Source of the DNA: Geminicoccaceae bacterium
GTDB taxonomy: Bacteria > Pseudomonadota > Alphaproteobacteria > Geminicoccales > Geminicoccaceae
Reading direction: 5' to 3'
NCBI GenBank assembly: GCA_025999455.1
Contig: AP024683.1
Location: forward strand, 1,743,501 to 1,807,500
Length of the DNA: 64,000 nt
The translations under genes were made by a program, and so were the position numbers. The notes below the pieces were generated by a model, which made no database searches, was not told the DNA's origin, and saw only the letters and a list, made by a program, of their open reading frames with translations. Position 1 is the first letter of the stretch, and each line of letters begins with the position of its first letter. Positions 6,516 to 22,765 of the stretch are shown here, one piece after another.

Positions 6516-7892
6516 ATGCAGCGCCCGCAGCGCGTCCGGCCGACGGCGATCGGGGCCTTCCTGCTCCTCCTCGGCCTGCTCTTCGGGCTCGCCGGCCCGT
6601 CCACGGCGCGCGAGCCCGAGGGTCCCGTGCTGTTGATCGAGATCGACGGGGCGATCGGGGTCGCCGCCGCCGAGTTCCTCGACAAGGCGCTCGGCGAAGC
6701 GCGCGCCCGCGACGCGCCGGCCCTCGTGCTCCGGCTCGACACACCGGGCGGGCTCGTGACCTCGACCCGGGTCATGATCAAAGCGATCCTCGCCTCGCCC
6801 ACGCCCGTGATCCTCTGGGTGGCCCCCGCGGGCGCCCGGGCGGCGAGCGCCGGCACCTATCTGAGCTACGCCGCCCACGTCGCGGCCATGGCGCCGGGCA
6901 CGCATCTGGGTGCCGCCACGCCGATCGCCCTCGGCGCACCGCCGAGCCCCTCGCGCGAGCCGGGCCGCGACGGCGAGCAGGCGCCCACGGGCGACGCGGC
7001 CGAGCGCAAGGTCTTGAACGACGCGATCGCTTACTTGCGCTCGCTCGCCCAGTTGCGTGGCCGCAACGCCGAATGGGCGGAAGCCGCGGTCGAAAAAGCG
7101 GCCACGCTCACCGCCGAGGAGGCGGCGGCCAAAGGCGTCGTCGACATCCTCGCCGGCACGGTCGAGGAGCTCCTCGACAAGGCCCACGGCCGCAAGGTCG
7201 CGATGGCCGAGGGCGAGCGCGTCCTCGACCTGCGCGGCCGGCCGGTCGAAACCCTCGACCCCGGGCTCCGGCTCCGGGTCCTGCAGGCGATCGCCGACCC
7301 CAACATCGCCTTCATCCTGCTCTTGATCGGCGTCTACGGGATCCTCTTCGAGTTCTGGAACCCCGGCACTTTCGTCCCCGGCATCGTGGGCGGCATCTCG
7401 CTCTTCCTGGCGCTCGCCGCGTTGAGCGTGCTCCCCGTGCAGATGGCGGGGATCGCGCTCCTCCTGCTCGGCATCGCGCTCATGGTGGCCGAGGCCTTCA
7501 CGCCGGGCATCGGCATCCTCGGGATCGGCGGGCTCGCCGCCTTCGCGGCCGGCGCCTTCTTCCTGTTCGATCCGGCGGCGGCGGATTTCGATCTGCGCGT
7601 CGCCATCCCCGTCCTGATCGCCGCGACCGGGGTCTCGGCGCTCCTGCTCATGGGGGTCTTGGGGGCGGCGATGAGCGCGCGCCGCCGGCGCGTCGTGAGC
7701 GGCGCCGAAGCCATGCTCGGGGCGGAGGGCGAGGTCGTCGCCTGGGACGGCCGCGAGGGGCGCGTCCGGGTCTCGGGTGAGGTCTGGGCGGCACGGGCCG
7801 CCCGGCCGATTCCGCCCGGCACGCCCGTGAAGGTGGTCGAACGCAAGGGGCTCGTGCTCGACGTCGAGCCGCTCGAAGGGAGATCGTCTTGA
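6516..7892 (+). CDS. NfeD-type membrane serine protease (ClpP-like domain plus NfeD)
   Basis: 458 residues. A signal-anchor (residues 10-31, [17 protein letters not shown]) is followed by a ClpP-class protease domain with RLDTPGGL, the nucleophile in ASAGT (Ser111) and a candidate Lys at 165 in AERKVLNDA, the Ser-Lys dyad of stomatin-operon proteases. Four or five membrane helices follow (about 260-385), then a C-terminal OB-fold NfeD domain ([11 protein letters not shown] to the end). Family members cleave stomatin partners; the next gene is that partner and starts inside this stop codon (TTGA). The ATG at 6516 was chosen because it places the signal segment near the N-terminus; an upstream start at 6474 is possible. 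Confidence 0.88.
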
Positions 7893-8665
7893 GGATCGAC
7901 CTCGTCTCGGATCTGGTCGCGACCGGCCTGCCGCTCGTCGTGATCCTCGTGATCCTCGCCTACTCGTTCCGGATCTTGCGCGAATACGAGCGCGGCGTCG
8001 TGTTCATGCTCGGCCGGTTCTGGAAGGTCAAAGGGCCGGGGCTCGTCATCGTCGTCCCGCTCGTCCAGCAGCTCGTCCGGGTCGATCTGCGGACCCGGGT
8101 GCTCGACGTGCCGAGCCAGGACGTCATCAGCCGCGACAACGTCTCGGTCAAGGTCAACGCGGTCGTCTATTACCGGGTGCTCGATCCCGAGAAGGCGATC
8201 ATCAACGTCGTCGATTTCGACGAGGCGACGAGCCAGCTCGCGCAGACGACGCTCCGGTCGGTCCTGGGCCAGCACGAGCTCGACGAGATGCTGGCCGAGC
8301 GCGACAAGCTCAACGCCGACATCCAGCGGATCCTGGATGCCCAGACCGACGCCTGGGGCATCAAGGTCTCGAACGTCGAGCTCAAGCACGTCGACCTCAA
8401 CGAGAGCATGATCCGCGCGATCGCCAAGCAGGCCGAGGCGGAACGGCTCCGACGCGCCAAGGTGATCGACGCGGAGGGCGAGCTGCAGGCGGCGGAGAAG
8501 ATCGCGCAAGCGGCCGAGATCTTGAGCCAACGGCCGGAAGCCATGCAGCTCCGCTATCTCGGCACGCTCCTGCAGATCGCCTCCGAGCGGTCGAACACGA
8601 TCGTCTTCCCCTTGCCGGGCGAACTCTTGGCCGGGCTCGGCGGGCGCGGCAAGGCGGCGAGCTGA
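7889..8665 (+). CDS. Slipin/stomatin-like SPFH protein
   Basis: 258 residues from a TTG overlapping the NfeD stop codon (TTGA), behind GAAGGGAGA. One N-terminal membrane helix (about 8-26) precedes the SPFH domain, with [44 protein letters not shown] and a coiled-coil segment [22 protein letters not shown]. This is the usual architecture of membrane-scaffolding stomatins that oligomerise in the inner membrane and are processed by NfeD proteases. The tight overlap with the protease gene confirms the classic two-gene stomatin operon. Confidence 0.92.
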
Positions 8666-8689
8666 GGAAGCGGCGGGCCCCGGAGGCGC

Positions 8690-10549
8690 TCACTCCGCGG
8701 CGCGGGCCTCGGGGCGAACCTCGTCGACCGCGACGGGGATGGGCTCGCCCACGAGCTCGAAGGTACGGATCGGCTGCTCGCGCCCCCGCGCGGCGAGGGT
8801 GCCGAGCTCGACGAAGCGGAACTCGCCCTGCGCTTCGCCGGCGATCGCCTCGCTCGCGACGATCGCCACCTCCCGGGTCGCGTCGAACCGCTCGCGGGCG
8901 AGCTCCATGAGCCGCTGGGCGACGTTCACCGTGTCGCCCACGACCGTGTAGTCGAGCCGGCCGGGTGCCCCGATGTTGCCGACCAGGAGCGGGCCGCGGT
9001 GGAGGCCGATCCGCACCTTGAAGACCGGCTCGCCGCGTGCCCGCTTGCGGGCATTGTCGGCCTCGATCGCGCGGCGGATCGCAAGCGCCGTGCGGCAGGC
9101 GCGCAGCCCACGGTTCTTGATCTTCTCGGGCGCGCCCCAGAAGGCGAGCATCCCGTCGCCCAGATATTTGTCGACCGTGCCGCCCTCCTCTTCGACACAG
9201 CGGGCGAGCAGCGCGAAATGGGCGTTCAAGAGCCGCGCCACCTCGACCGGCGGCAAGCTCTCGGCGATCGCCGTGAAGCCTTGGATGTCGGTGAACATGA
9301 CGGCGAGGTCGCGCTCGCGCGACGGCACGGCATCCGGTCGACCCGCCTTGATCAACCGCTCCACGAGGCTCTTCGGCACGTAGGTCGCGAAGGCCTTCAA
9401 GGTCGAGAGCATGGCGTTGAAGGCGCGGGCGAGCCCGTCGAGCTCGGCGATCCGGCTCGAAGGCAAGGGGGCGAGCGCGTCGAGCTCCAGGCTCGAGACC
9501 CGCTCGACCGCGGCCGTGACGCGCACGACCGGCCGGGCGAGCCGGCGGCCGATCGCGACCGCGGCCGCGACCGCCACGAGCCCGATCGCGAAGGCCACGA
9601 GGGCAAAGAGGCGGAGCGGCATCAAGACGGGGTGGATCACCATTTCCGGCACGACCAGGCCGACCGTCCAGGGGCGGGCGCCGAACCCTTCGATCTCCTT
9701 CGCGAGCACGAGCTCGGACGAGGCGTCCGTTCGCACGACCCGCACCACCGTGACCGCCCGGCCCGCGGTTCCCGGATAGCTCGCGAGGCGCTCGCCGCTT
9801 CCGAGACCCCGGAGCGCCGGGTCGGCGAACCGATCGACCGGTTCGAGCGGCTCGCGCCGGCTGCCGGTCGGCACGAGGCGCAGGAGCGGGTGGGCGAGTA
9901 CCCGATCGCCCAACAGCACGAAGGGCCGGGCCTCGCCGTTGCCGGACAGCGATTCGACGAGGGCCGAGAGGCGGCCGACGCTGATCCCGGCCGCCACGAC
10001 CCCGAGGAACTCACCGTCGCGGCGGACGGGACGGAGGGCGAAGAGCACCGCTTCGCCGAGCCGGCCACCGAACACGGGCTCGGCCCACACCACACCGGTC
10101 GCGGCCCGGGCGAGCGCCAGCCGGCGGGCGAGCATCGGGTCGGGCTCGGTTCCGCGCGGCTGGAGGATCGGCTCGATCGTGCCGTCGCCGCGCCGCAGCA
10201 CGCCCGTGACCGTGCCGTCGACCGTCGTGACGCCGATCCCGGTGAGCTCGTCGTGGCTCGCCAGGAGCACCTGCAGGACGGGTGCGAGCGTGGTCCGGTC
10301 GGTCGGCTCGACCCGGCCCTCCTCGAGCAGCCGGGCGAGGCTCGTCACGTCGTGCTCGGCCTGGGCGAGATGCTCGCGCAAGCCCTGCTCGAGCCGGCCG
10401 ATCGCCTGGATCGCGCGCTGCCCCAAGAGCTCGCGGGTGAGGTCGCGGACCACGAGCCAGCCGGCGAGGGCCGCCGCGGCGACCCCGGCGAGCACGATGC
10501 CACCCAGGACCGTGGCCAAGAGCGTGCTCAACGCGACCGGCTTCTTCAC
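8690..10549 (-). CDS. Membrane adenylate/guanylate cyclase with extracytoplasmic sensor, HAMP and class III cyclase domain
   Basis: 619 residues. Membrane helices at about 8-33 and 312-333 flank an extracytoplasmic sensor of roughly 270 residues with Cache-like pattern (GVTTVDGTVTGVL, GVVAAGISVGRL). A HAMP linker (334-385) leads to a class III cyclase domain from about 413. Metal-binding Asp421 (FTDIQGF) and Asp465 (YLGDGMLAFWG) and the VVGDTVNVAQRL motif are intact, with Lys461 as a substrate-selecting residue, so the enzyme should be active and most likely makes cAMP. The ligand sensed is unknown. The gene diverges from typA across about 120 bases. Confidence 0.9.
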   Translation of the reverse strand: MKKPVALSTLLATVLGGIVLAGVAAAALAGWLVVRDLTRELLGQRAIQAIGRLEQGLREHLAQAEHDVTSLARLLEEGRVEPTDRTTLAPVLQVLLASHDELTGIGVTTVDGTVTGVLRRGDGTIEPILQPRGTEPDPMLARRLALARAATGVVWAEPVFGGRLGEAVLFALRPVRRDGEFLGVVAAGISVGRLSALVESLSGNGEARPFVLLGDRVLAHPLLRLVPTGSRREPLEPVDRFADPALRGLGSGERLASYPGTAGRAVTVVRVVRTDASSELVLAKEIEGFGARPWTVGLVVPEMVIHPVLMPLRLFALVAFAIGLVAVAAAVAIGRRLARPVVRVTAAVERVSSLELDALAPLPSSRIAELDGLARAFNAMLSTLKAFATYVPKSLVERLIKAGRPDAVPSRERDLAVMFTDIQGFTAIAESLPPVEVARLLNAHFALLARCVEEEGGTVDKYLGDGMLAFWGAPEKIKNRGLRACRTALAIRRAIEADNARKRARGEPVFKVRIGLHRGPLLVGNIGAPGRLDYTVVGDTVNVAQRLMELARERFDATREVAIVASEAIAGEAQGEFRFVELGTLAARGREQPIRTFELVGEPIPVAVDEVRPEARAAE

Positions 10550-10596
10550 CTCGCCCTCGTCCTCGACCCCCGGCCGATCGGTGCGCGGCCGTCGCG

Positions 10597-10625
10597 TTGC
10601 CGCGTGCCGACCGGGCCCTTATATG
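10597..10625 (+). promoter_or_regulatory. Sigma-70-type promoter for typA
   Basis: TTGCCG (10597-10602) and TATATG (10620-10625) are spaced by exactly 17 bases. The AT-rich -10 box stands out in GC-rich DNA and lies 45 bases before the typA ATG. The divergent cyclase gene starts 48 bases away on the other side. Confidence 0.55.
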
Positions 10626-10669
10626 CGGAGCGCGGCTCGCCCGTCTGCCCCGCCCTTCCCGAGAGACCC

Positions 10670-12493
<1,824 letters not shown>

Positions 12494-16484: not shown

Positions 16485-17090
16485 TCAGCGGGGCCGGCGC
16501 GACGGCCCGGAGAGCGTGGGGCTCCGGGCCGCTGCCGAACGGCGCAGCAGGAGGTAGAGCGCCCCGGCGCCGCCGTGGGCCCGGCCGGCCTCGGCCCAGC
16601 CCAGGACCCGGGCGGCGAGCGGGGGTTCCCGCAGCCAGCGCGGCACGGCGCGGCGCAGCACGCCGCCGCTGCGCTCGCCCCGGCCGGTGATCACGAGGAC
16701 GCAGCGATGGCCCCGCTCCTGGGCCCGGGCGAGGAAGGCGAGGAGGGCGTCGTGCGCGGCTTCCTGATCGAGCCCGTGCAGGTCGAGCCGGGCGGAGATC
16801 GGGTATTGGCCGCGTTCGAGCCGCCGGAGCGTGCGCCGGTCGAGCGGGGTGGGCGAAAGCGGCAGCGGGGTGGCGGGGCGCTGCGGGCGCGGGGCGGCCG
16901 CCTCCGCGATCGGGCCCGGTTCGGCGACGGGCTCGTCGAGTGGGCGGCCGGCCGGCTCGGCCACGGTCGAGAGGGGTGGTTCGCGAGCCGGGGGCAGCGT
17001 ATCGCGCTCGACGCGGCGGACGACCTCGCGGACCGCGTGGTGCCAGAGGGCGAGCTCGAGCGCCGTCGGCTCGCGGGTGCGACCGCGCAT
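16485..17090 (-). CDS. Smr domain protein
   Basis: 201 residues. After an N-terminal Pro/Ala-rich linker the C-terminal Smr domain begins at RLDLHGLDQEAAHDALLAFL and continues with VLVITGRGERSGGVLRRAVPRWL, the two hallmark blocks (LDLHG and TGRG) of Smr nickase-like domains. This is the alphaproteobacterial short Smr form, not full MutS2. Its ATG shares one base with the lutC stop (TGATG), so it is translated from the lut transcript, but a functional link to lactate oxidation is not expected. Confidence 0.9.
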   Translation of the reverse strand: MRGRTREPTALELALWHHAVREVVRRVERDTLPPAREPPLSTVAEPAGRPLDEPVAEPGPIAEAAAPRPQRPATPLPLSPTPLDRRTLRRLERGQYPISARLDLHGLDQEAAHDALLAFLARAQERGHRCVLVITGRGERSGGVLRRAVPRWLREPPLAARVLGWAEAGRAHGGAGALYLLLRRSAAARSPTLSGPSRRPR

Positions 17091-17782
17091 CAGGATTCGA
17101 CCGGTCGGGCCTCGTCGACCAGCAGCACGAGCAGGCGGCGGGGGCCGTGCGCGCCGAGCTCGATCGAGGGCGGGATGTCACCGGTCCGCGAGGGGCCGGT
17201 GATCAGGTTGACCGAGCGCGGCGGGAAGCCCGGGCGGCCGCGCAGCCGTGCCCATGCTTCTTCGTACGTGCCCACGAGAGCCGCGGTCGGTAGCACGACG
17301 ATGCTGGTCTCGGGCAGGAAGGCGAGCAGCGTCGGCCGCTCCGCCGCCGAGGCCAGGAGCAGCGTGCCGGTCTCGGCGATGCCGGCCAGCGCCACGGTGA
17401 GCCCCACCGGGTCGGGCTCGGCGGGCACACCGGTCCGCACCTCGAGCAGCGGGTCGGCCTCGAGACCAGCCGCGTCGAGCAAGGGGTCGGCGGCGCGGAC
17501 GAGCCGCGCCGGGAGGTTGTGGCGGCGGAGGAACTCGACGACCGCGTCGCGGATCCCATCGGGTCCCGAGAGCCTCTGCACCTCCGCGCCGACCGCCCGG
17601 GCCATGCGGCCGAAGAGCGCGATCCGCTCCTCGCCCGCGACGGCCGCGCGCGAGGGCAGCGGGCCCGGCCGTGGCGCGGCGAGCCGGGCCCCGATCTCGG
17701 CCGCGGCTGCGGCGCGGGCTTCGGCCGTCCGGCCGAGAGCGGTCCGGATCCGTGCGAGGATGGCTTCGCGGGCCTCGCTCAC
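17090..17782 (-). CDS. lutC: Lactate utilisation protein C (LUD domain)
   Basis: 230 residues from a GTG behind GGAG. The LUD-domain blocks are present: GIAETGTLLL, LLAFLPETSIVVLP and the C-terminal LITGPSRTGDIPPSIELGAHGPRRLLVLLVDE. LutC is the third subunit of the LutABC iron-sulfur complex that oxidises L-lactate to pyruvate. The N-terminal segment ILARIRTALGRTAEAR is duplicated upstream in degenerate form. In most genomes lutB and lutC are adjacent, but here 1.9 kb of repetitive DNA lies between them, so the operon is interrupted though each gene looks intact. Confidence 0.93.
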   Translation of the reverse strand: MSEAREAILARIRTALGRTAEARAAAAAEIGARLAAPRPGPLPSRAAVAGEERIALFGRMARAVGAEVQRLSGPDGIRDAVVEFLRRHNLPARLVRAADPLLDAAGLEADPLLEVRTGVPAEPDPVGLTVALAGIAETGTLLLASAAERPTLLAFLPETSIVVLPTAALVGTYEEAWARLRGRPGFPPRSVNLITGPSRTGDIPPSIELGAHGPRRLLVLLVDEARPVES

Positions 17783-18285
17783 GTCAGGGCTCCGTCACAC
17801 CACGCGCCGGACCGGCCACGGCGCTGAATTTCTCCGAATCCGGTATCCGACCGCGGCGCGGAGGTTCGGCCATCCGGACGCCCACGGCACCCGCCCTTGG
17901 CGCGGCGAACCGGCTCGCGAGCTCGGCCGCGGCCACGGCGCAAGCATCGGGTGCCCGGTCGAGCTCCGCTCGGAGGTGGGTCGGGATGACCGGGCGGGCG
18001 CTGCGCCTGTCCGAGCTTTGCGCGCTGCGCGCAGCCAACCTCGTTTGCAACCTCTCGTCGGTTGTCCCGGTCCGCCGGTGCGCCTCCGGAGATCCGGCCA
18101 CCCCGGCGGAAAGGGGACCTCGGCGGCGAGTCGAGAGCGCGGCATCGGTCCGCCCTCCGGCTGCTGGGGGCGTTCTTTCGACGAGATCGCCGAGCCGGGC
18201 CGCGAGCTGGGCGGATGCCGCGGTGCGGGCTTCGGCCGTCCGGCCGAGAGCGGTCCGGATCCGTGCGAGGAGGGCTTCGCGGGCC
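17714..18285. repeat. Direct repeats of the lutC 5' coding end
   Basis: The block 17714-17774 inside lutC recurs at 18225-18285 with one mismatch. A weaker copy lies around 17893-17990 (sharing TTGGCGCGGCGAACCGG-like sequence with lutC), and a further very degenerate match around 18415-18475 just outside this range. Together they show repeated capture of the same gene end. Confidence 0.7.
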
Positions 18286-18293
18286 GTACTCAC
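17784..18293 (-). pseudogene. Truncated/duplicated lutC 5' end, degenerate open frame
   Basis: A GTG at 18293 opens a 169-residue frame whose first ~30 residues, AREALLARIRTALGRTAEAR, copy the start of LutC; DNA 18225-18285 matches 17714-17774 in 60 of 61 positions. After about residue 30 the LUD domain is absent and the frame continues through Arg/Ala-rich sequence. Near its end AVAAAELASRFAAPRAG (DNA about 17893-17990) again resembles LutC residues 25-40. The frame stops one base before the lutC start codon. It reads as a chain of partial lutC duplications rather than a folded protein; expression as a small peptide cannot be excluded. Confidence 0.6.
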
Positions 18294-18819
18294 GGGCCTT
18301 CTCCCGCGGCTGCGTACACGGGACCGCGCAAGATGCCTCCTCCGATCGTCCCCAGGCTTCGAGCTCGGCGGGTGGTGCTGTCGCCCGAGCGAAGGTGCGA
18401 CTGCGCAGAGGGCCCGGCCGTTCGGCCGAGGCCGGCTCGGAGGCGGGTCGGGATGGTCGCGCGGAAGCCGCTCACGGCCGGCCTCCGTGACCGACCCGAG
18501 CCTGCCGATCGCGCGGCGGACGGCGTTCGCGCGTGCGTGGCGGGAGCGGGAACGACGAGCCCGCGGCGGTTCGGCATCGGCTCCGCCCGTCCGCGGCTCT
18601 GCTCGCTCCTGCGTCGAAGGCCCACGAGCCACGAGGCTCGATCGCGTCGGGCCGACGAGCGGGCGGAGACGAAGCGGCCCGGTCCGCCGCTCGGAAAAAC
18701 CGTGTGGACCGGGGTGTGGGCTTCGTCCGGCGCGAGAGCGAGCGCTCCTCGTGCAGGCGCGCGCGGGACCGGACCGCAACCCGGGACCGGAGGTGCAGGC
18801 GGAGGTGCATGCGCGGTCG

Positions 18820-19409
18820 AGCTCCGGCCGGCTTCTGGGCATCGAGGGGCAGAAGCCACCGTGGCCGGACGGGGGGCGGGGGCGAGCTCCGGTCAGCTTT
18901 TCGGCGTCGAGGGTCGCGATCTGCGGCCATCGGACAGGCGGCCGAGGGCGAGCACCGGTCGGCTCCCGGGCATGGAAGGTTGCGAGGTGCCGCGCTCGTA
19001 CGGGCACACGCGAGTGAATCCCGACCAGCTTCCATGCGTCGGGGGTCACGAGCTGCCGTGGCCGGACGGGGAGGGACGGGTGAGCCTCGGTCAGCTCTTC
19101 GGCGTCGAGGGTCGCGATCTGCCGGCACCGGACAGGCGACCGGGGACGAGCACCGGTCAGCTCCCGGGCATGGAAGGTTGCGAGGTGCCGCACTCGTACG
19201 GGCACACGCGAGTGAATCCCGACCAGCTTCCATGCGTCGGGGGTCACGAGCTGCCGTGGCCGGACGGGGAGGGACGGGTGAGCCTCGGTCAGCTCTTCGG
19301 CGTCGAGGGTCGCGATCTGCTGCCATCGGACAGGCGGCCGGGGGCGAGCAGTGGTCGGCTCCCGGGCATCGAGGGGCGCGAGCCGCCGCGGCCCGACGGG
19401 CGGGCGCAA
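18820..19409. repeat. 66-bp minisatellite array between lutB and lutC
   Basis: About nine units of 66 bp follow one another. The period equals 22 codons and stays in phase, so several frames read through as 22-residue repeats (plus frame: GQLFGVEGRDL-type; minus frame: RQLVTPDAWKLVG-type). Three unit types alternate, producing a 198-bp higher-order repeat present twice, at 18951-19148 and 19149-19346, with about seven differences. The outer units are more diverged. Codon third positions are less GC-rich than in neighbouring genes, which argues against protein coding. Confidence 0.85.
18951..19346. repeat. Two tandem copies of a 198-bp higher-order repeat
   Basis: Copies 18951-19148 and 19149-19346 differ at about seven sites; their central 70 bases are identical. 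The unit preceding them (18885-18950) matches the last third of each copy. The high identity points to recent duplication by unequal exchange or slippage. Confidence 0.85.
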
Positions 19410-19685
19410 ACGGGCTCGGGCGCGGGGAGAGTCTCGGCGGACGATTCGCGGGCGGACGTCCGATCGGGCTCGGATCCGGCGCGGGGTCGAGCCAGGCGGG
19501 CCTCGGACCGCTCGGAAGGGAAGCCGCGATCCCGGGTCCGGTGCGCCGCGGGAGGTCGACCTCGGGCCCGGCGTACCACGGGAGGTCGGCTCGGTTCGAT
19601 CGCGCCGTCGAGGCGGCCGCTGCAAAAGGCCGACCGGCCGACGCCGGGTCGGGATCGGCGTGACCCCTCGCGCTCGGCGAACGGC

Positions 19686-21092
19686 TCATGGCCGGCCCCG
19701 CGTCCGCCACAGGGCGCGGAAGGTCGGGCCGGAGGGGACCGGAAAATCGCGGCTCGCGGTCCAGCCGGCGGCGAGCGGCAAGCGCGAAAAGCGGCCGCGA
19801 CGGCGGCCCAAGAGCCCGAGCCCGGCCGCGGCGAGGCGGGTCGCGAGCCGGTAGAGCGCCGGGCGGCGAGCCAAGAAGCCCCAGGCCGAAAGGCCGAAGC
19901 GGGCGGTGGGCGGTGGCAGATGGCGGCGATGGGCCTCCTCGCGCCAGAGCCGCATGAGTTTCGGGAGGGGTATGCGGACGGGGCAGACTTCCTGGCAGCG
20001 GCCGCAGAAGGTCGAGGCGTGCGGCAAGGTCCAGGTCCGCTCGAGGCCGGCGAATTGCGGGGTGAGGACGGACCCCATCGGCCCCACGTACACCCAGCCG
20101 TAGGCGTGGCCGCCGACCGCGAGATAGACCGGGCAGTGGTTCATGCAGGCCCCGCAGCGGATGCAGCGGAGCATCTCGCGGAACGGCCCCCCGACCATCG
20201 CCGACCGGCCGTTGTCGAGGAGGACGAGGTGCATCTCCTTCGGGCCGTCGCGGTCGCCCGGCCGGGCGGGCCCCGTGAGGAAGGTCGTGTAACCCGAAAA
20301 TTCCTGCCCGGTCGCCGAGCGCGCCAAGAGGCGGAGCAGGGTGAACGCATCCTCGACCGTGGGTACGAGCTTCTCGATGCTCGTGATCACGAGATGGACG
20401 CGCGGCAGACCCTGGGTGAGCTCGGCATTGCCCTCGTTCGTGACGGTGACGACCGAGCCCGTTTCGGCCACGAGGAAATTGGCGCCCGTGATGCCGACCT
20501 CGGCCTCGAGGTAGCGTTGCCGCAGAACCCGGCGCGCCTCGGCCACGAGGGCGGCCGAGTCCTCTTTGGGTGGCCCGCCGTGGTGGCGGGCGAAGAGCTC
20601 GGCGATCCGCTCGCGGGTCATGTGCACGGCCGGGCCCACGAGGTGGCTCGGCACCTCGCCCGCGAGCTGGACGATGTACTCGCCGAGATCGGTCTCGACG
20701 ACCCGGAGCCCGTTGGCTTCGAGGAACGGGTTGAGGCCGATCTCCTCGGCCACCATGCTCTTGGACTTGGTGACCGTCTTCGCCCCGACCGCGCGGCAGA
20801 TCTCGAGCGCGATCGCGCGGGCTTCGGCGGCATCGCGCGCCCAATGGACCACGCCGCCCGCCGCGCGGAAGCGTTCCTCGAAGATCTCGAGGTAGAGATC
20901 GAGGTTGGCGAGGACGTGGTTCTTGATCGCGACGGCCGCATCGCGCAGCGCCTCGAACTCCGGGAGTGCGGCCGCGGCCCGCGTGCGACCCTCTTGCCAG
21001 CCCGTCTCGAGCCGGCGGAGTGCGGTCTCGAGGACGGGATCCGCGAGGGCCCGGGCGGCGCGTTCGCGGAAGGCGAGGCTCTGCGGCTCCAT
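19686..21092 (-). CDS. lutB: Lactate utilisation iron-sulfur protein LutB
   Basis: 468 residues. The N-terminal LUD domain (KNHVLANLDLYLE, GAKTVTKSKSMVAEEIGLN, ETDLGEYIVQLAGE, VTNEGNAEL) is followed by two [4Fe-4S] clusters, CIRCGACMNHCPVYLAVGG and CGRCQEVCPVRIPLPK, and a C-terminal helical tail. This matches LutB/YkgF, the electron-transfer and core subunit of L-lactate oxidation to pyruvate. ATG at 21092 shares one base with the lutA stop (TGATG). Downstream the expected lutC is displaced by 1.9 kb of repeats. Confidence 0.95.
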   Translation of the reverse strand: MEPQSLAFRERAARALADPVLETALRRLETGWQEGRTRAAAALPEFEALRDAAVAIKNHVLANLDLYLEIFEERFRAAGGVVHWARDAAEARAIALEICRAVGAKTVTKSKSMVAEEIGLNPFLEANGLRVVETDLGEYIVQLAGEVPSHLVGPAVHMTRERIAELFARHHGGPPKEDSAALVAEARRVLRQRYLEAEVGITGANFLVAETGSVVTVTNEGNAELTQGLPRVHLVITSIEKLVPTVEDAFTLLRLLARSATGQEFSGYTTFLTGPARPGDRDGPKEMHLVLLDNGRSAMVGGPFREMLRCIRCGACMNHCPVYLAVGGHAYGWVYVGPMGSVLTPQFAGLERTWTLPHASTFCGRCQEVCPVRIPLPKLMRLWREEAHRRHLPPPTARFGLSAWGFLARRPALYRLATRLAAAGLGLLGRRRGRFSRLPLAAGWTASRDFPVPSGPTFRALWRTRGRP

Positions 21093-21862
21093 CAATCCCC
21101 CTCGCGCGGCCTGCCGATCGGCGGCTCCTCGAGCCGTCCCGCGAGCACTTCGGCGACGTGGCGGACGGCGAGCCGCGAGCCCCGCCGTGCCGCCCGACCG
21201 GCCATGTTCAAGAGGCACCCGAGATCGCCCGCGAGCAGGAGCTCGGCGCCGGTGGCCTCGGCATCGTCGAGCTTGTCGTCGACCATGCGGGTCGAGACCT
21301 CGGGATATTTGACACAGAAGGTGCCACCGAAGCCGCAGCAGACCTCGGGACGGCGCATCTCGACGAGCTCCAGGCCGGCGACACGGGCGAGCAGCCGACG
21401 CGGCTGGGCCTTCACGCCGAGCTCGCGCAGGCCCGAGCAACTGTCGTGGTAGGTGGCGCGCGCCGCGAGGGCGCCCGGCACCTGCGTGAAGCCGCGGACG
21501 TCGACCAGGAAGGAGAGGAGCTCGAAGCTCTTGGCGGCGACCGCCTCGGCGCGCCGCTTCCAGGCCGGGTCGGAATCGAAGAGCTCGGGGAAGTGGGTGC
21601 GCAGCATGCCGGCACAGGAGCCCGAGGGTGCCACGACGTAGTCGTAGGGCTCGAGGGCCGGGATGGTCTGCCGGGCGAGGTCTTCGGTGGTCGCCCGGTC
21701 GCCCGAATTGAAGGCCGGCTGGCCGCAGCAGACCTGGGGCTCGGGCACCTCCACCCGGCAGCCGGCGGCCTCGAGCAGCTCGACCGCGGCGAGCCCGACG
21801 GTCGGCCGGAAGAGGTCGACGAGGCAGGTCACGAAGAGGGCGACGCGCGGGCGATCGGACAT
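21092..21862 (-). CDS. lutA: Lactate utilisation protein LutA (CCG domain)
   Basis: 256 residues with two cysteine-rich CCG domains, PQVCCGQPAFNSGD and PEVCCGFGGTFCVKYPEVS, which ligate an unusual iron-sulfur cluster; the same fold occurs in GlpC and heterodisulfide reductase subunit B. LutA is the first subunit of the LutABC complex. The ATG at 21862 gives MSDRPRVALFVTCLVD, the canonical LutA start; a longer frame upstream is not supported. It is the promoter-proximal gene of lutA-lutB-(repeats)-lutC-smr. Glycolate-oxidase GlcF is related but has an additional ferredoxin domain absent here. Confidence 0.93.
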   Translation of the reverse strand: MSDRPRVALFVTCLVDLFRPTVGLAAVELLEAAGCRVEVPEPQVCCGQPAFNSGDRATTEDLARQTIPALEPYDYVVAPSGSCAGMLRTHFPELFDSDPAWKRRAEAVAAKSFELLSFLVDVRGFTQVPGALAARATYHDSCSGLRELGVKAQPRRLLARVAGLELVEMRRPEVCCGFGGTFCVKYPEVSTRMVDDKLDDAEATGAELLLAGDLGCLLNMAGRAARRGSRLAVRHVAEVLAGRLEEPPIGRPREGD

Positions 21863-21997
21863 GGGCGACTCGGCGGTGTCGACGGGCAGACCTAGGCGCT
21901 GGGGCGGCCGGTCGCAACCGTCGAACGGGGGCGAGGCTTTCCTCGCGGGCGGGGCGGGCTTAAGGGCAGACGGTGGGCCGGGCGAGCGGGAGGGCGC

Positions 21998-22765
21998 GTG
22001 GAAGCGGGAACGATTCCGAAGGCGGCGTTGGTGACCGGCGGGGCGCGGCGGATCGGCCGGGCGCTCGCCCTCCGCCTCGCGCGCGAGGGCTTCGACCTCG
22101 CGATCCATTATCGCGGCTCGGCGGCCGAGGCCGAGGCGACCGCCGCAGCGGTCCGCGAGCTCGGCCGGCGCTGCCTGCTCGTGCCGGCCGACCTCGAGCG
22201 GCTCGCCGAGGTCGAGACGATCGTGCCGCGGGCGACCGCCGCGCTCGGCCCGCTCGGGGTCCTCGTCAACAACGCCTCGATCTTCGAGCTCGACCGGATC
22301 GGCACGCTCGACGAGCGGAGCTGGTTCCGCCACCTGGCCGTCAACCTCACCGCGCCGACCTTCCTCTGCCGGGCGTTCGTCCGCCAGCTCCCGGCCGAAG
22401 CCGAGGGCCTGATCGTCAACCTGCTCGACGAGCGGATCTTCAACCCCACGCCCAACTATCTCTCCTACACGGCGAGCCGGTTCGGGCTCTGGGGGGTGAC
22501 GCAGGTGCTCGCCCGCGAGCTCGCACCCCGGATCCGGGTCAACGCGATCGGCCCCGGCCCGACGCTCCCCGCGGCCGGCACGACCGAGGCCGATTTCGCC
22601 GCGCTTTGCGCCAAGATGCCCTTGAAGCGCGGCAGCTCGCCCGAAGAGCTCGCCGATGCGCTCGCCTTCATCCTGCGCGCCCGTTCGATGACCGGGCAGA
22701 TGATCACGCTCGACGGCGGGCAGTCGCTCGGCTGGCTCACCACCGACGGAGCGCTCGGCGAATGA
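21998..22765 (+). CDS. SDR oxidoreductase, pteridine-reductase/FolM-like
   Basis: 255 residues from a GTG behind GGGAGGG. The motif VTGGARRIGRALALRLA with Arg-Arg after GGA indicates NADP binding and is typical of FolM and pteridine reductases, and NNAS (instead of NNAG), LLDERI and YTASR (Tyr...; Lys position replaced by Arg in the YxxxK motif: Y-T-A-S-R) are visible. FolM-type enzymes reduce dihydromonapterin or dihydrofolate. The substitution at the catalytic Lys is noted below. First gene of an overlapping set through 25423; its stop overlaps the hydrolase start (ATGA). Confidence 0.75.
   Translation: MEAGTIPKAALVTGGARRIGRALALRLAREGFDLAIHYRGSAAEAEATAAAVRELGRRCLLVPADLERLAEVETIVPRATAALGPLGVLVNNASIFELDRIGTLDERSWFRHLAVNLTAPTFLCRAFVRQLPAEAEGLIVNLLDERIFNPTPNYLSYTASRFGLWGVTQVLARELAPRIRVNAIGPGPTLPAAGTTEADFAALCAKMPLKRGSSPEELADALAFILRARSMTGQMITLDGGQSLGWLTTDGALGE

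Follow-up and report, generated by a model that had tools for sequence, protein, structure and literature searches.

MIRU (mycobacterial interspersed repetitive unit) loci carry related, dispersed units. Primate alpha satellite is an example of higher-order repeats in satellite DNA, where a homogenised centre with diverged edges is established as the product of unequal exchange. In alignments of E. coli, 2 to 4% of the loci that vary are minisatellites (PMC2884548, excerpt). MIRU are themselves minisatellites, mostly intergenic and hypothesised to be transcribed within a polycistronic operon, with 24 loci used for typing (PMC3635867, excerpt). The excerpts consulted from the literature on bacterial higher-order repeats and unequal crossing over described no bacterial intergenic higher-order array, which leaves absence from print unproven.

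The tandem array described here shares something with each of these systems. It lies in the window, a stretch of 64,000 nucleotides (G000:C1:1743501-1807500) from a single-contig Geminicoccaceae genome of 3.76 Mb, between two genes of the lut row. The conserved lutABC operon has been implicated in the use of lactate (PMC3924224, excerpt). The genes and the gap that hosts the array are as follows.

16485-17090, minus strand: Smr-domain gene (smr), downstream of lutC, from domain search
17090-17782, minus strand: lutC (LUD domain; Pfam PF02589, E 7e-23)
17783-19685, no strand: 1.9-kb spacer that separates lutC from lutB; GC phase and codon score mark it as non-coding
19686-21092, minus strand: lutB (LUD, Fer4_8 and LutB_C domains), from domain search
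21092-21868, minus strand: lutA (CCG domains), from domain search

The four genes are co-directional in the window, and their order is kept in relatives; the best named matches of LutB, among those listed, are two Geminicoccaceae MAGs (70% and 68% identical), which places the genome near Geminicoccaceae in the Alphaproteobacteria, although that list may omit the window's own genome or its closest kin. The spacer is the longest gene-finder gap in the window, and its GC content resembles that of its surroundings. To place it among relatives, we searched 59 other genomes, found a lutB match in 40, and compared the locus in 14 of these. The lutB-lutC gap, taken between matched ends, is below 100 bp in 13 of the 14. 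The congener G005 has 1.58 kb between lutB and lutC, and the gap between lutC and smr is about 1 kb in both G004 and G005. Neither of the long G005 gaps (L119 5579-7142 for lutB/lutC, 7836-8827 for lutC/smr) has detectable similarity to the window spacer.

A repeat search resolved the array into nine 66-bp units in tandem, with a spacing of 65 bp once and then 66 bp seven times. Its parts carry no strand assignment.

18812-19403: tandem array, monomer order Z0 A1 B1 C1 A2 B2 C2 A3 B3
18877-19074: higher-order unit 1, 198 bp (A1 B1 C1)
19075-19272: higher-order unit 2, 198 bp (A2 B2 C2)
19273-19403: higher-order unit 3, partial (A3 B3)

TRF recovered both periods, one of 66 bp (18866-19389, 8.0 copies, 63% matches) and one of 198 bp (18859-19369, 2.6 copies, 92% matches). 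Self-identity of the array is 0.595 at lag 66 and 0.805 at lag 198, against at most 0.414 at any lag from 20 to 299 in 200 dinucleotide shuffles. A first-pass annotation of the window had reported a 66-bp minisatellite with 198-bp higher-order units at 18820-19409. That structure is confirmed; its position is better given as 18812-19403, and the host feature is the spacer at 17783-19685.

The higher-order unit is 198 bp long and comprises three monomers. Types A, B and C are mutually 59-71% alike, whereas copies of the same type are 83-100% alike (A copies 0.83-0.94, B1-B2 0.94, C1-C2 1.00), B3 excepted. B3 is 74-77% alike to B1 and B2 and, together with Z0, forms the diverged edges. Identity between monomers three units apart rises from the left (Z0-C1 0.70, A1-A2 0.83, B1-B2 0.94) to the middle (C1-C2 1.00) and falls again to the right (A2-A3 0.94, B2-B3 0.74). 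Copies spaced by 198 bp are thus identical in mid-array and 70-74% identical at the edges, which is the pattern left by unequal exchange. The recent amplification claimed by the first-pass annotation holds for the central 198-bp copies alone; the 66-bp monomer types are old, as their 59-71% likeness indicates. Its count of about seven differences between two 198-bp copies is true of the closest register (7 differences), and the register 18871/19069 gives 16 of 198. A block of perfect identity between copies is indeed present, with a length of 128 bp rather than the 70 bp proposed (18995-19122 versus 19193-19320).

As in other bacterial intergenic minisatellites and VNTR loci, the units are tandem direct repeats of tens of base pairs in an intergenic gap; they run head to tail, within the usual range of about 10 to 100 bp and beyond chance. 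The array differs from those loci in its diverged monomers and three-monomer higher-order unit, and it is known from one genome. With MIRU it shares the nature of a minisatellite and an intergenic position, but MIRU occur at many loci, while the present unit was found at one. Its likeness to satellite higher-order repeats lies in diverged monomers assembled into a larger recent block, with a homogenised centre and diverged edges, and the 198-bp blocks are more alike than their own monomers; the difference is that nine monomers stand here in a bacterial gene row rather than in long centromeric arrays. Invariant columns number 25 of 66 over eight units. They are scattered along the unit, and whole units are alike, unlike a CRISPR array, in which unrelated spacers part invariant repeats.

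Searches for further copies scored the best 40 first-look candidates per genome. No second array of the 66-bp unit was found in the window's own genome (40 of 177 candidates scored), and none in five congeners. The sole other match among the 40 in its own genome, at position 3541377, spans 40 bp (E 6e-4) and lies in a predicted gene; weak single matches in the congeners G005 (68 bp, E 8e-5) and G002 (64 bp, E 1.5e-4) also overlap predicted genes. A blast search of an 864-kb sample of the genome (23% of it) gave 37.4 bits as the best match outside the array, within the range of 60 shuffles (median 36.5, at most 41.0). The G005 match, at 44.6 bits from a whole genome, exceeds that range, which was derived from the 864-kb sample of the window genome, and is a borderline candidate for a relative of the array unit. 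Related units at many intergenic loci, the mark of a MIRU-like family, were not seen among the candidates scored, and a dispersed family of the 66-bp unit is rejected because its three weak matches all overlap predicted genes.

Other duplicated sequence lies within the spacer itself. Three decaying copies of the start of lutC lie there.

18188-18294, minus strand: 107-bp copy of the sequence around the lutC start, 88% identical
17903-18009, minus strand: older copy, 66% identical to the lutC start
18423-18480, minus strand: third copy, sharing 74% identity with the one at 17956-18013

The third copy aligns to lutC itself over 96 bp at 71% identity. In the copy at 18188-18294, the youngest of the three, one difference falls in a stretch of 61 bp and 12 in the other 46 bp (clustering P 0.0016), a near-identity tract such as conversion would leave.

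Taken together, these observations make it probable that the array is a non-coding minisatellite that grew neutrally and in place, in a lineage-specific spacer built at least partly by local tandem duplication. Tandem duplications would have arisen one after another at the lutB/lutC junction, with lutC surviving intact as the last copy each time, and would have helped to widen the gap from less than 100 bp to 1.9 kb. Within the spacer, a 66-bp unit may then have been amplified and its copies have diverged, after which a three-monomer block would have been re-amplified by unequal exchange between misaligned copies. Such exchange could proceed by RecA-type recombination or by replication slippage, and would keep the central copies alike. 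Drift and weak selection against spacer length would suffice to explain the outcome. The array resembles neither a gene nor a switch but DNA that is expanding as local duplications recur, and between the two options offered by the first-pass annotation, slippage-prone non-coding DNA is the one that fits. A non-coding minisatellite is an ordinary kind of element; the higher-order unit gives this one a slightly unusual form. It offers a compact bacterial case of satellite-like evolution, in which monomers have diverged, a block has been re-amplified and the centre is homogenised.

Several observations count against this explanation. The left-edge unit Z0, which carries the one-base offset, is nearest to the right-edge unit B3 (0.76) and not to type C. 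An nhmmer profile search for descent of the 66-bp unit from the lutC start stayed at the level of shuffles, and such descent is rejected. Finally, stop triplets are scarce in every one of the six frames of long gaps in this genome, which neutral growth alone does not explain.

A broader reading concerns the long gaps in general. In the 864-kb sample, long GC-rich gaps without period-3 comprise seven flat segments in six gaps. The sample holds three intergenic arrays that are not CRISPR-like and have a TRF score of at least 150, the lut-spacer array among them, and all are in long GC-rich gaps, in line with the explanation favoured above. The other two sit in neighbouring gaps of one 20-kb piece, L141 (G000:C1:1120001-1140000, where G000 is the genome of the window).

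L141 14123-14794: intergenic tandem array, 3.0 x 227 bp
L141 17633-18145: intergenic tandem array, 2.6 x 198 bp

A 66-bp period shared with the second of these was sought over 17589-18148 and rejected; since the L141 array has no 66-bp substructure, the shared period of 198 bp may be a coincidence. In the first 464 kb sampled from the window genome, 23 gaps reach 500 bp or more, and 5 of them are self-similar within 1.5 kb, one of them (L148) by a copy of a flanking gene end. The corresponding counts are 4 of 14 in G005 and 5 of 23 in G003, with several of the similarities short and two inverted. No duplications were found in the G005 lutB/lutC spacer. Given that spacer and the 18 of 23 gaps that are likewise free of duplications, local duplication is not established as a general route of gap growth, a further point against the explanation given above.

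The stop deficit was measured in two ways. In long gaps of G000 and G005 chosen by eye for flat GC phase (14.7 kb pooled), the observed/expected ratios were 0.49 for TAA, 0.55 for TGA and 0.63 for TAG, while the short gaps of G000 gave 0.98, 0.91 and 1.05. A fixed filter, which outside G003 also dropped segments below 69% GC, gave TAA 0.20 (2 occurrences), TGA 0.62 and TAG 0.78 in G000 (6.3 kb, a set in which both L141 arrays are included, as are the opening 151 bp of the array in the lut spacer), and 0.61, 0.54 and 0.62 in G005 (12.0 kb). Other samples speak against a general deficit. Long gaps of G003 (10.7 kb) show no deficit of all three, with TAA 1.08, TGA 0.87 and TAG 0.73. The sample from G004 is tiny (1,277 bases; TAA 1.76, TGA 1.20, TAG 0.95). 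Two segments from another genus (G022) gave TAA 0.90, TAG 1.03 and TGA 0.90, and eight from a further one (G058) gave 0.79, 0.82 and 0.85 for TAA, TAG and TGA. The non-stop pair TTG/CAA is also low (0.69). Stops were also counted over six frames in individual gaps of G000 and G005: there are 18 in the window spacer, where shuffles give about 31, and 18 in the G005 gap at L119 5579-7142, where they give 28, and L173 9514-13602 has 3, 3, 4, 5, 6 and 6 stops per frame. Window 17783-18811, L173 9514-13602 and L167 1797-4423 are among the stop-poor long gaps.

In flat gaps between co-directional genes (12,967 bases), stops number 59 in sense and 61 in antisense. Since antisense is as stop-poor as sense, selection for translation is rejected as the cause of the deficit, which is independent of frame and strand and therefore not the trace of one gene. 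Stop-codon depletion has been described in lincRNAs (PMC7086181, excerpt), and the titles listed alongside it mention nothing about long bacterial gaps. One reading of these data is that the long GC-rich gaps of G000 and G005 form a single DNA class that follows dynamics of its own, growing partly by local tandem duplication that includes neighbouring gene ends, and stop-poor in six frames. The array would then represent an early phase in the making of long, stop-poor, non-genic DNA. We regard this as unlikely. If it were true, such DNA would be possible raw material for new genes, and the spacer class, if upheld, would allow tests of how DNA outside genes comes to be long and open.

A regulatory role for the array appears less likely still. 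The repeat might bind a protein, fold as RNA or, through its copy number, tune expression of lutC; the array does sit within a row of co-directional genes, and for MIRU loci there are hypotheses and some evidence of such effects (PMC3635867, excerpt). The region 17000-22200 also holds four terminator-like sites, against 1.1 +/- 0.9 in shuffles. Two overlapping sites of this kind, at 18151-18172, lie on the plus strand, opposite to the lut genes. However, neither strand of the array folds better as RNA than its shuffles do (z -0.35 and -1.11), and Rfam gave no match at the gathering score and one below it (E 0.63, 18571-18630); a structured RNA is rejected on these grounds. The absence of the array from the five congeners and the presence of just 25 invariant columns in 66 likewise speak against a cis-acting element, which we consider quite improbable.

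The first-pass annotation had also noted that the array reads open in several frames and might encode a 22-residue repeat protein. Four of six frames are indeed open end to end over 592 bp, where 300 shuffles average 0.77 such frames. The total of stops in the array (10 versus 12.8 +/- 2.9 in shuffles) is nevertheless not unusual. The open frames of the array thus stem from its repetition and are no evidence of coding, and the spacer as a whole reads open partly because long GC-rich gaps of this genome and of G005 are stop-poor in six frames. More generally, at a GC content of about 75%, finding long open reading in several frames is poor evidence for coding.

Two long frames could carry the proposed 22-residue repeat, one on the minus strand at 17784-19625 (613 aa, stopping shortly before the lutC start) and one on the plus strand at 18533-19663 (376 aa). 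The minimum numbers of changes by codon position over eight units are 18/16/17 (chi-square p 0.94), and, counted by phase, 198-bp copies differ from one another at 6/7/3, 7/6/8 and 7/8/9 positions. We then tested all six frames by permuting substitutions and translating units singly, with old changes taken between monomer types and recent changes between copies. The 613-aa frame (minus 0) yields plausible-looking repeats, and its old changes favour amino acid identity (P 0.027; BLOSUM P 0.079; both uncorrected for six frames), but its recent changes are without constraint (BLOSUM P 0.69). Frame minus 2 is favoured by recent changes (BLOSUM P 0.004) but not by old ones (P 0.87). Frame plus 1 has the only borderline agreement between old and recent changes among the six (amino acid identity P 0.005 and P 0.051; recent BLOSUM P 0.57), yet it is broken by a stop in the C unit. 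The codon-position analysis of the units suggested in the first-pass annotation therefore gives no consistent coding signal in six frames, and no one open frame combines codon-phase bias with conservation.

Base composition was examined by phase as well. Plus-strand GC by phase is nearly flat in the spacer (0.77/0.77/0.70), compared with 0.91/0.53/0.72 in lutB; the array is less flat than the spacer (0.79/0.80/0.60), and the lower GC at the middle codon position of the minus frame (0.60 versus 0.79-0.80) is in favour of coding. Against it, the outer codon positions stand at about 0.8, while genes of this genome have about 0.91 at the third position, with about 0.5 at the second. Local period-3 is absent from the spacer parts on either side of the array, 17783-18811 (P 0.39) and 19404-19685 (P 0.72). 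The 613-aa and 376-aa frames have no Pfam match and no homologue in 59 relatives (of 60 genomes searched, they match their own alone), and four long open frames tested have no NCBIfam match. A 22-residue repeat protein is thus unsupported, with substitutions even over codon positions and no match in families or relatives; we think it very unlikely that either long frame encodes one, and the array is most likely non-coding.

We also considered whether the spacer, array included, is what remains of an inserted mobile element or of horizontally acquired DNA. The lineage-specific, insertion-like difference in length at a fixed junction would agree with such an origin, but it is made highly improbable by the lack of any spacer match in collections of plasmid (72,556 records) and phage (50,697 records) sequences, by GC like that of the surroundings, by the lack of family matches for the open frames tested, and by the part of the spacer that is lutC sequence. 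An assembly artefact is scarcely credible, even though tandem repeats are known to cause errors in assembly (PMC6868369, excerpt), as differences between units reach 41% of sites and the edges are unlike the centre, so that most units are distinct and only the number of nearly identical central blocks could be wrong.

Several further sequences came to light in the course of these searches. L146 27-1475 (G000:C1:2045001-2065000) is a CRISPR-like array with an unchanging repeat and differing spacers, at a period of about 67 bp, and L146 8929-9866 is a tandem duplication with a period of 491 bp inside predicted coding sequence. Our gene finder was home-made and crude, and several long gaps with coding-like GC phase are probably missed or misoriented genes. 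Within the window, a gene-finder gap followed by a plus-strand gene call with an odd protein occupies 8666-12493, and the GC phase there points to a gene that was overlooked or called in the wrong orientation. Elsewhere, L202 7449-10881 (G000:C1:460001-480000) holds a tandem repeat in a predicted coding region, with 25 copies at a period of 135 bp, and is perhaps a long repeat protein.
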